From: a virus | Length of the DNA: 23,029 nucleotides | Direction: 5' to 3' (one strand) | Virus record (IMG/VR): IMGVR_UViG_3300036406_000075 | Span: 1-23,029 of that record | In this document: positions 1-9,271 of the stretch, piece by piece | How positions within the stretch are numbered: position 1 is the first letter of the stretch | Layout of the letters: each line of letters starts with the position of its first letter | Notes under the pieces: model-generated | Databases searched by the model: none | What the model was told of the DNA's origin: nothing | What the model saw: only the letters and a program-made list of their open reading frames with translations | Position numbers and translations under genes: made by a program

Positions 1-411
1 GACCTCGCCAAGCGGTTTAAGAAGACCATCGACCCCAAAGTGTTGGCCGATGATGACGATCCAGCTCTTGCCGCTGCTAACCAGCAGATGGAGGCGATGG
101 CCGCTGAGATGGAAAACATGTTCCAGATGTTGCAAAACGTCAACCAGAGCATGGAAGCTCGTGAGATGCAGATCAAGCAGTTTGAGGCTGACATCAAGGC
201 ATACCAAGCTGAAACACAGCGTATCTCTGCTGTGCAGGCTGGCATGAGTGAGCAACAAATCCAAGACATCGCTATGGGCGTTGTGGCTGCTGCGATGGAG
301 AGCAACGACAATATGGTCATGATGACTGAGCAGCGTGAGATGCCTGAAATGCAGCCCGAGATGCAGCCAGAAATGATGCCACCCCAAGGAGAGATGAATG
401 AAATGCGCTGA
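1..411 (+). CDS. Portal protein, C-terminal end (partial, P22 gp1-like)
   Basis: This frame is open from the first base, so the gene starts left of the window; 136 codons remain. The visible part is almost wholly helical and rich in Gln, Glu, Ala and Met, as in the C-terminal helical barrel of P22-type portals. It begins with a basic segment (KRFKKTIDPKVL) followed by an acidic patch, a junction I recall from P22-like portals. The last 30 residues are a Met/Pro/Glu-rich tail with repeated EMQPE units. Portal rings form the DNA channel at the head vertex, and the tail machine attaches to them. The identification rests on sequence style and on the scaffold and coat genes downstream, not on a catalytic motif. 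The stop overlaps the next start. Confidence 0.72.
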   Translation, partial: DLAKRFKKTIDPKVLADDDDPALAAANQQMEAMAAEMENMFQMLQNVNQSMEAREMQIKQFEADIKAYQAETQRISAVQAGMSEQQIQDIAMGVVAAAMESNDNMVMMTEQREMPEMQPEMQPEMMPPQGEMNEMR

Positions 412-760
412 TTTTGTAGGTGAACTGTTCTTGGCCCGCGACGTGGCCCATTCAGTCCACCTGAACACCCGCAGCTTTTCCAAGCACTCGGCGCTGAACA
501 CGTTCTACGACGAGGTGATCGACTTGGCTGACAAATTTGCCGAGGCGTACCAAGGCCGTCATGGTCTAATTGGACCCATCAGTCTGATGAGCGCCAAGAA
601 GAACGGCAACATCATCGAGTTTCTGGAGCAGTCCCTCAAAGATATTGAAGATATGCGGTATGAGGTGGTGAGCAAAACCGACACCCCGATCCAGAATATC
701 ATTGATGAAATCGTCGGGCTTTATTTGGCGACCTTGTATAAATTAAAGTACCTCGCATGA
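398..760 (+). CDS. Dps/DUF5856-like four-helix protein
   Basis: This 120-aa protein looks all-helical. It resembles the phage family DUF5856, with the pattern H..HLNT.S...H.AL..FY..V.DL.D...E.YQG near the N-terminus. The spacing H18, H30, D45, E49 equals that of the ferroxidase ligands of Dps proteins (E. coli Dps H51, H63, D78, E82), and the flanking residues L33, F36, I41, D42 and A48 also match. Role is unknown: iron storage, DNA protection or a purely structural four-helix protein are all possible. An AAGGAG ribosome site at 386-391 supports ATG 398, which overlaps the portal stop by 14 nt. The next gene overlaps its stop by ATGA. Confidence 0.6.
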   Translation: MKCADFVGELFLARDVAHSVHLNTRSFSKHSALNTFYDEVIDLADKFAEAYQGRHGLIGPISLMSAKKNGNIIEFLEQSLKDIEDMRYEVVSKTDTPIQNIIDEIVGLYLATLYKLKYLA

Positions 761-1353
761 AACGCGCAGAAGCAAAGGCTCTTGGCTTGAAGTTTTACAA
801 CACGGGTAAGCCGTGCAAGCATGGGCATTTGTCGGACAGATATGTGCAAGGGGCATGTATTGAGTGCGTCAAGATTCAAACTAGCGAATGGAAAAACAAC
901 AATCCTGAGAAACAGAAACACGCCATGCGTAAATGGTGGGAAAACAACAAAGAAACCCACAACGGGCGCGTAAAAAATTGGCAAGCTGCAAACCCTGAAA
1001 AGGTCAAAGAAACGGCAAAATTATGGGTTGCCGCAAATCCTGAAAAAGTAGCTGAAAAGACCAAGCGTTACAGGCAAAGGCACCCTGACCAAACAACTGC
1101 GTGGGCGGCAGCAAGCGTGGCAAAAAGGTCAAAACGCGTCCCAAATTGGTTGACACCAGACGACAAGTGGATGCTTAAAGAGGCGTATTCTCTGGCAAAA
1201 TTACGCACAAGATTGTTTGGTTTTGTTTGGGAAGTTGACCACGTTTTCCCACTCAGGGGCAGTTTTGTGTCAGGCTTGCATGTTCCAACCAACATCCAAG
1301 TTATTCCCAAGGCTCTTAACAGAGCTAAACGCAACGTGTATCATCCGAATTAA
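757..1353 (+). CDS. HNH endonuclease with zinc finger and 15-residue repeats
   Basis: This 198-aa protein has three parts. Residues 20-37 carry a CKHGH...CIEC cluster that probably binds zinc. Residues 49-123 hold five 15-residue units, most starting NPEK or a variant, with an aromatic residue every 15 (W45, W60, W75, W90, Y105). Residues 159-192 form an HNH-type nuclease core: VDHVFPL (D161, H162), H175, N179 and a closing LN..KRN motif. It probably cuts DNA as a mobile homing-type enzyme. The gene is richer in Lys, Asn and A/T than its neighbours, which suggests acquisition. It starts inside the upstream stop (ATGA) without a strong ribosome site, so translation is probably coupled. Confidence 0.75.
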   Translation: MKRAEAKALGLKFYNTGKPCKHGHLSDRYVQGACIECVKIQTSEWKNNNPEKQKHAMRKWWENNKETHNGRVKNWQAANPEKVKETAKLWVAANPEKVAEKTKRYRQRHPDQTTAWAAASVAKRSKRVPNWLTPDDKWMLKEAYSLAKLRTRLFGFVWEVDHVFPLRGSFVSGLHVPTNIQVIPKALNRAKRNVYHPN

Positions 1354-7163: not shown

Positions 7164-7706
7164 TCAACTATTGTCATACCTGCTATGTTTACCAGCAATA
7201 AACCCTTTCACACCCTTAACCGCCCGCAAAAGCCCTTTGGCCTTGTAGGCGTCGATTGCGTGTTGAAGATTTTGCTGATGCGTAACAACTTCCAAGTTAT
7301 TCAGTCGATTGTTGGCACGGTCAAGGTCTTTGTGGTTTATTTCCAGTCGGCCTTCAATTCGCCCGTTGAACGCTTCCCACACCATGCGATGCACACCGCG
7401 CCGCGTGTATTTGGCGTCTTTGCAAAGACTTGCGACAAAATAATGTTTCAACAATTGCGGCTTGACAAGTCTGTAAGTTGCGTTGCCAACCCACGTCTTA
7501 CCCAGCTTGATAGAATGGGCCGTGGGTATGCTGGTGCCCAAAAACTCAGCAACTTGTTTAAGGGTCGCGCCGTGCTCAAACATCTGCTTGGCTTCGGGAA
7601 TTTTGGCGGCGTCAAGGGTCTTACCTCTGGCAATCCTGCGCACATTTCCAAGGTCGCTCACCTCGTACAAATCTTCAAAGTCCAAAACTGGTTTCCACGT
7701 TTCCAT
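7164..7706 (-). CDS. Free-standing HNH endonuclease with NUMOD4 and HTH
   Basis: From ATG 7706 this gives 180 aa. Residues 3-25 match NUMOD4 (WKPVLDFEDLYEVSDLGNVRRI). Residues 35-70 form a resolvase-like helix-turn-helix (EAKQMFEHGATLKQVAEFLG). Residues 75-150 are the HNH core: GVHRMVWEAF (H106), INHKD (N124, H125, D127), NNLEVVT (N136-N137) and N146. It is a homing-type endonuclease. It is the only minus-strand gene among the late genes and sits between the gp4-like and gp10-like genes, so it is probably a mobile insertion with its own control. GGAG about 8 nt upstream selects ATG 7706 over an upstream start at 7751, which would overlap the gp10-like start. Confidence 0.88.
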   Translation of the reverse strand: METWKPVLDFEDLYEVSDLGNVRRIARGKTLDAAKIPEAKQMFEHGATLKQVAEFLGTSIPTAHSIKLGKTWVGNATYRLVKPQLLKHYFVASLCKDAKYTRRGVHRMVWEAFNGRIEGRLEINHKDLDRANNRLNNLEVVTHQQNLQHAIDAYKAKGLLRAVKGVKGFIAGKHSRYDNS

Positions 7707-7733
7707 AGCTTGACTCCATTTAATATGAATAGG

Positions 7734-7742
7734 AGTATAGCA
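7734..7742 (-). promoter_or_regulatory. Possible extended -10 promoter for antisense endonuclease
   Basis: Read on the minus strand, TG (7742-7741), one base, then TATACT (7739-7734) gives an extended -10 box 28 nt before the endonuclease start. I see no clear -35 box. It overlaps the ribosome site and start codon of the gp10-like gene on the other strand. Confidence 0.35.
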
Positions 7743-9271
7743 TGAAGACACCTATATTGGGCAGCAGCTACGTCACCCGCAGCGTCAACGCTGCGGATGC
7801 CCGCATGGTCAACCTGTTCCCCGAAGTCATCCCCGAGGGTGGACTAGAGCCTGCGTTTTTAAACCGCGCACCAGGTTTGCGCCTACTGGCAACAATCGGC
7901 ACTGGTCCAATTCGTGGTCTGTGGGATTTTGCGCCGGACAGCAATACCGCTTTTGTCGTGTCGGGCACTCAGTTGTTCAAGATCAACCGCAGCTACACGG
8001 CTACACTGCTGGGCACTGTGGTAGGCACTGGCCCTGTCAGCATTGCTGATAACGGCACTCAGTTGTTCATCGCAGCCAACGGGCCAAGCTACATCTACAA
8101 CAACACAACAAACGTGTTCCAGCAGATCACTGACCCAGACTTTCCTGGTGCGGTAAGCGTGGGCTATCTGGACGGCTACTTCGTGTTCAACGAGCCAAAC
8201 AGTCAAAAAATTTGGGTTACCAGTCTGCTGGACGGTCTGTCCGTGGACCCGCTGGATTTTGCAAGCGCCGAAGGTGCTCCCGATGAAGTGACTGGTTTGA
8301 TTGTTGACCACCGTGAGGTCTGGGTGCTGGGCACCAACTCGGTTGAGGTTTGGTACAACGCAGGCACCCCAGACTTCCCATTACAGCGCATCCAAGGCGC
8401 TTTTAACGAGATTGGCTGCATATCCCCTTACTCGCTTGCCAAACTCGATAACGGCGTGTTCTGGCTGGGTTCTGACGCCCGTGGCAAGGGCATCGTTTAC
8501 CGGGCCAACGGCTACACGGGCACCCGCATCTCAACACACGCTGTTGAGTGGCACATCCAACAATACAGCGACATCACCGACGCTTTTGGGTACACGTACC
8601 AACAAGACGGCCATAGTTTTTATGTGCTGATTTTTCCATCGGCCAACACCACATGGGTGTATGACGTGGCAACGCAGGCGTGGCACGAGAGAGCCGGGTT
8701 TAACAACGGTGACTTTACACGGCACCGCAGCAACTGCCAGATGGCGTTTAACAACGAGATTGTGGTCGGCGACTTTCAAAACGGCAAAATCTACGCTTTT
8801 GATCTTGATGACTACTCGGACGACGGGCAGATTCAAAAGTGGCTGCGCACATGGCGTGCGCTGCCTACGGGCCAGAACAACTTTGAACGTACCGCGCAGC
8901 ACAGTCTTCAGCTTAATTTAGAAACAGGTGTTGGTATATCGGGAAACGATCCAGCGGTGCCATTTCCAGCCGAAGCGCCAACTCTAGTTTTAGATTTTGT
9001 CAATCAGCAGTACGACATTTATCAGCCAAACTTTGTGCAAGGGTTTGACCCCCAGGTCATGCTGCGCTGGAGCGATGACGGTGGCCACACATGGTCTAGC
9101 GAACACTGGGCATCCATCGGCAAAATTGGCGTTTATGGGCAGCGCACGTTCTGGCGGCGTTTGGGCATGACGCTCAAACTGCGTGACCGGGTGTATGAGG
9201 TATCTGGCACTGACCCTGTGAAGATCGCCATCACTGGCGCTGAACTCATCTTTAGCTCAACCACAGCATAA
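7742..9271 (+). CDS. Tail hub / packaged-DNA stabilisation protein, P22 gp10-like
   Basis: This 509-aa protein belongs by sequence style to the P22 gp10 family (472 aa in P22). It begins MKTPILGSSYVTRSVNAADARMVNLFPE, and this VNLFPE start is characteristic. A beta-propeller-like series of strands follows (FVVSGTQLFKINRSY, TQLFIAANGPSYIYN, YLDGYFVFNE, REVWVLGTNSVEVWYN). The region WLGSDARGKGIVYRANGY is a strong family block, and the end contains MLRWSDDGGHTWS and a gp10-like closing beta region. It should form the hexameric hub under the gp4 ring and hold spike and needle. AGGAG (7731-7735) precedes ATG 7742. The stop overlaps the next start by one base (TAATG). Confidence 0.9.
   Translation: MKTPILGSSYVTRSVNAADARMVNLFPEVIPEGGLEPAFLNRAPGLRLLATIGTGPIRGLWDFAPDSNTAFVVSGTQLFKINRSYTATLLGTVVGTGPVSIADNGTQLFIAANGPSYIYNNTTNVFQQITDPDFPGAVSVGYLDGYFVFNEPNSQKIWVTSLLDGLSVDPLDFASAEGAPDEVTGLIVDHREVWVLGTNSVEVWYNAGTPDFPLQRIQGAFNEIGCISPYSLAKLDNGVFWLGSDARGKGIVYRANGYTGTRISTHAVEWHIQQYSDITDAFGYTYQQDGHSFYVLIFPSANTTWVYDVATQAWHERAGFNNGDFTRHRSNCQMAFNNEIVVGDFQNGKIYAFDLDDYSDDGQIQKWLRTWRALPTGQNNFERTAQHSLQLNLETGVGISGNDPAVPFPAEAPTLVLDFVNQQYDIYQPNFVQGFDPQVMLRWSDDGGHTWSSEHWASIGKIGVYGQRTFWRRLGMTLKLRDRVYEVSGTDPVKIAITGAELIFSSTTA

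Follow-up and report, generated by a model that had tools for sequence, protein, structure and literature searches.

The stretch of viral DNA analysed here, called the window, comprises 23,029 nucleotides (positions 1 to 23,029 of IMG/VR record IMGVR_UViG_3300036406_000075) and belongs to a P22-like phage. An open reading frame on the plus strand at 398-760 encodes a protein of 120 amino acids with a pI of 5.5, which matches PF19174 (DUF5856) at an E-value of 2.4e-21 and, scoring 77 bits against a curated cut-off of 34.6, is a member of that family. It also matches phrog_858 (E=3.7e-26). Runs against NCBIfam and PADLOC yielded no useful information. Two features define the locus:

1..411 (+): portal gene, 3' part, whose last 14 bases are shared with the DUF5856 gene (assigned from the gene order in 150 relatives and the portal of the related locus L082)
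398..760 (+): gene of the DUF5856/phrog_858 protein, 120 aa, a putative Dps-like mini-ferritin subunit (PF19174, phrog_858, predicted four-helix model, Dps and ferritins as top solved matches)

The order of portal followed by DUF5856 gene recurs in 150 relatives, and the gene preceding the DUF5856 gene in L082 matches the portal family phrog_156 (E=4.6e-127). Other genes of the window encode a tailspike-like protein, a scaffold, the major head protein, a connector and DNA-ejection proteins. The association with virion genes proposed in a first-pass annotation of this DNA thus holds, the gene lying directly after the portal and relatives of its product being present in virions. The stop codon of the DUF5856 gene is overlapped by an endonuclease VII-like gene at 757-1353 (+) (phrog_1035, E 2e-18). 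Since the gene found here at 1364-1666 directly follows the DUF5856 gene in 65 of 70 relatives, the endonuclease VII-like gene looks like a mobile insertion. A homing-type endonuclease of the HNH_3/NUMOD4 kind is encoded on the other strand at 7164-7751 (-), flanked by virion genes.

The annotation had pointed to H18, H30, D45 and E49, spaced like the iron-oxidising residues of Dps. These residues stand at those positions in the translation, and the E. coli Dps of the K-12 record carries H51, H63, D78 and E82. Five further identities given in the annotation (L33, F36, I41, D42 and A48) are also correct, corresponding to L66, F69, I74, D75 and A81 of that record. The H-12-H-15-D-4-E pattern occurs in 0.04% of shuffles of the protein and in one of the 184 open frames of at least 60 aa in the window. 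This rarity, combined with conservation in 52 relatives, indicates that the pattern is not due to chance.

Relatives were gathered from viral contigs and phage records and reduced to 52 non-redundant sequences with 30-98% identity. H21, H30, Y37, D45, E49, Y114, L116 and L119 are invariant among them and H18 is kept in 98%, where the full conservation is partly selected, because some searches used patterns including D45 and E49 or other site residues; searches with patterns away from the site were also used. The BLAST matches in T4, RB16, LIMEstone1 and ctOK67 keep the site residues as well. Loss of these four residues in homologues, named beforehand as an observation that would count against a Dps-like site, was therefore not what the relatives revealed. 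Among close relatives the median dN is about 0.17 and dS about 2, with synonymous sites near saturation, which places the gene under strong purifying selection. The helices and codons concerned are as follows:

404..463 (+): predicted helix A (residues 3-22), bearing H18 and H21 (DSSP on the model)
449..451 (+): codon of H18, 98% conserved, aligned with K48 of Dps (alignments)
458..460 (+): codon of H21, invariant, equivalent to H51 of Dps (alignments)
476..562 (+): predicted helix B (residues 27-55), bearing H30, D45 and E49 (DSSP on the model)
485..487 (+): codon of H30, invariant, equivalent to H63 of Dps (alignments)
530..532 (+): codon of D45, invariant, equivalent to D78 of Dps (alignments)
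542..544 (+): codon of E49, invariant, equivalent to E82 of Dps (alignments)

Three of the four proposed ligands, H30, D45 and E49, can be retained as equivalents of Dps ferroxidase residues, while H18 has to give way to H21. MAFFT, HMMER and hhalign alike place H21 opposite H51 of Dps, opening a gap of three residues in the AB loop, and leave H18 opposite K48, a position occupied by His in H. pylori NAP (HP-NAP) and some other Dps proteins. Of 254 relatives, 66 have three extra residues in the AB loop, for example HWRAKGDGSFAKH, and in these the 12-15-4 spacing of Dps starts at the counterpart of H21, that of H18 lying at a distance of 15; H18 was accordingly rejected as the H51 equivalent. 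The short-loop relatives (185 of 254) separate the counterparts of H21 and H30 by 9. Judged from these alignments, the distance of 12 at H18 is a coincidence of the shorter loop, through which the right site was nevertheless reached. In an alignment of seven DUF5856 and four Dps members, H21, H30, D45 and E49 form the only invariant columns. D67, which is conserved in Dps, is replaced by N34 here and is variable across DUF5856.

Sequence profiles connect the family to Dps in several ways. The DUF5856 family profile matches HP-NAP at an E-value of 8e-4, followed by Bacillus subtilis MrgA, Deinococcus Dps2, the Dps of Y. pestis and E. coli and a few non-Dps chains, so that its leading matches are mostly Dps. 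The Dps alignment used for profile-profile comparison contained 13 bacterial and phage sequences, drawn from phage and plasmid records because a genome-wide Pfam ferritin search yielded loci without a tblastn match to E. coli Dps, and a scan of genome contigs returned nothing beyond close enterobacterial Dps. Against this alignment, hhalign aligned 113 columns of the DUF5856 profile at a probability of 85 and a score of 39.4, compared with at most 20.4 over 60 column shuffles. Reciprocal signals were obtained for E. coli Dps against phrog_858 (0.0087), for RB16 rI.-1 against the phage Dps family phrog_3636 (0.0019) and for a Streptomyces phage Dps against PF19174 (7.7e-4). The DUF5856 model also gave a sub-cut-off signal in B. 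subtilis, for which MrgA or another Dps may be responsible. For the 398-760 protein taken alone, PF00210 (Dps/ferritin) gave no match at E up to 1, BLASTP produced no alignment with E. coli Dps, and phmmer against the PDB found no Dps, which only profiles recovered.

A single AlphaFold2 prediction, made from a 49-row alignment, has a mean pLDDT of 94.6 and a pTM of 0.89. DSSP assigns helices to residues 3-22, 27-55, 72-90 and 96-119, giving a predicted four-helix bundle. Foldseek against the PDB lists Dps and other members of the ferritin superfamily as leading matches, the best with a probability of 1.00 and E-values of 0.05 or worse. VIA-align superposes the model on M. smegmatis Dps2 (Z 14.1, rmsd 2.4, 119 aligned) and on E. 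coli Dps (Z 13.0, rmsd 2.5, 117 aligned, with residue 1 of the model at residue 31 of Dps); by the tool's own note, Z values of 13-14 are within reach of unrelated helical bundles and are not proof by themselves. The unrelated fold that would have spoken against Dps did not appear, and a Dps-like fold is strongly predicted. The model contains no BC helix between residues 56 and 71 (DSSP; local pLDDT about 79), and a Lys/Arg N-terminal tail is absent, helix A beginning at residue 3.

A chance resemblance of an unrelated four-helix bundle could explain why the direct sequence match is so weak, with no BLASTP alignment and no PF00210 match; yet profile, profile-profile, fold and intermediate-sequence evidence all give the same residue correspondence, which makes this explanation scarcely credible. 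The case for homology to Dps is strong, and it is carried by the agreement of independent lines instead of any one score.

Relatives of the protein have been detected in virions. LIMEstone1 ORF78, whose gene lies in a virion-gene cluster with a late promoter, was represented by three peptides and 28% coverage (PMC3296691, Table 2), and Sajous1 gp217, 91% identical to it, by 10 spectra (PMC10892097). A protein of the Klebsiella phages ValerieMcCarty03 and ValerieMcCarty04, assigned to DUF5856/phrog_858 by name, was found in purified virions (26/27 spectra; PMC13119998). The annotation's remark that DUF5856 proteins are left without a function is not wholly accurate: phrog_858 carries the label "starvation-inducible transcriptional regulator" in PHROGs and RefSeq, and a 2024 paper names Sajous1 gp217 "Ferritin" after a Phyre2 model of 96.7% confidence (PMC10892097). 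The regulator label was probably derived from Dps similarity and is misleading, the mini-ferritin reading fitting better. True Dps proteins are known in phages (PMC8008677, PMC6669764). The family is thus partly recognised already, and the present reading is in part anticipated by the naming of gp217; a literature search found no residue-level Dps assignment for DUF5856, and no paper that uses the name DUF5856. T4 rI.-1 (locus L370, 220-606 (-); T4 58819-59205) likewise belongs to DUF5856 and keeps the five conserved residues; to our knowledge it has figured only in studies of lysis inhibition.

On balance, and with reasonable though far from full confidence, the 398-760 protein is read as a phage-encoded, shortened Dps-like mini-ferritin with inter-subunit iron sites, which would oxidise Fe(II) and is probably borne by the virion. 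In Dps, the two-fold axis that relates paired subunits brings the histidine and the aspartate/glutamate ligands together between chains. H30 and D45 lie on one continuous helix, 15 residues or about 22 A apart (at 1.5 A per residue), so that any metal shared by them would have to sit between subunits, the arrangement known from Dps. Homology makes an inter-subunit iron site of the Dps type the likeliest arrangement, and a ferroxidase function is likely. In the dimer envisaged, which has two-fold symmetry, H21 and H30 of each subunit would lie opposite D45 and E49 of its partner, making two iron sites of the Dps type. Fe(II) would bind to the protein and be oxidised by peroxide or oxygen, and this would limit Fenton damage. 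Being made with the portal, a few copies would probably enter the virion, as in relatives, and could act on DNA that is packaged or has just entered, or within the cell late in infection. For this phage we infer the dimer geometry, a dodecamer, the iron chemistry, presence in the virion and the role. The absence of a lysine-rich N-terminal tail and of a BC helix, together with the pI, makes Dps-style coating of DNA unlikely, and the handling of iron or peroxide is the better guess. We hypothesise that packaged DNA may be protected in this way. A further suggestion is that the mini-ferritin is packaged in the virion by way of its association with the portal and delivered with the DNA, shielding the genome on entry against the iron and peroxide of the host; T4 rI.-1 would then be a long-overlooked model member. 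This is doubtful, with a modest chance of being right.

Other roles for the same fold have to be considered. The protein might be a structural or assembly component of the head or neck, which retains the fold and metal site of Dps just for holding an oligomer together and plays no redox part. The position of its gene immediately behind that of the portal, shared by 150 relatives, the virion location of relatives, the missing DNA-binding tail and the acidic pI would all suit such a component, but the gene moves between positions, lying in tail or lysis modules in loci L083, L086 and L171 and in the rI operon of T4 and RB16, which is unusual for a portal partner, and the complete set of Dps ligands is retained. 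This role is considered unlikely. T4 rI.-1, whose gene adjoins rI, underlies the suggestion of a lysis-timing regulator with the metal as a sensor, and its overexpression slightly prolongs lysis inhibition (review PMC6832632). That effect is small and comes from overexpression, however, while genes of the window's clade sit with the portal and DUF5856 proteins are found in virions, so a regulator of this kind is improbable. Carriage of an iron-loaded ferritin by the virion to exploit host iron uptake at entry, the "Ferrojan horse", was proposed for Sajous1 gp217, itself a DUF5856 member (PMC10892097). In the same paper, however, tonB and feoB mutants were infected similarly, and there is no sign that a portal-adjacent subunit of 120 aa is on the particle surface; this proposal is very improbable for the protein studied here.

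If the mini-ferritin reading is correct, it provides an explicit residue-level interpretation for a common phage family now filed as DUF5856 or mislabelled as a transcriptional regulator. The inclusion of T4 rI.-1 makes iron binding, survival of peroxide and virion content testable in a standard laboratory phage, and phage-encoded oxidation of iron within particles would be relevant to the survival of phage DNA under oxidative stress.

Three groups of known systems come closest. T4 and RB16 rI.-1, LIMEstone1 ORF78 and Sajous1 gp217 belong to the same family by the curated cut-off and share the conserved H, H, H, D and E at about 30-35% identity, although they come from large myoviruses, whereas the window derives from a P22-like phage with the gene after the portal. 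The Dps proteins (E. coli Dps, H. pylori NAP, M. smegmatis Dps2 and the Streptomyces phage Dps of phrog_3636) have the four-helix fold in common with the model, and their H51, H63, D78 and E82 correspond to H21, H30, D45 and E49. The 398-760 protein differs from them in an AB loop shorter by three residues, in L22 for W52 and N34 for D67, and in lacking the BC helix, the N-terminal tail and a PF00210 match; a Lys/Arg DNA-binding tail is not universal in Dps. Bacterioferritin and the 24-mer ferritins show the same general bundle (Z about 11.8), but their in-bundle E and ExxH ligands are missing from helices A-D of the protein. Two giant-virus proteins in BFVD, A0A481ZC29 of Pithovirus LCPAC404 and A0A7D3V608 of Fadolivirus, also match the model, at 20-28% identity.
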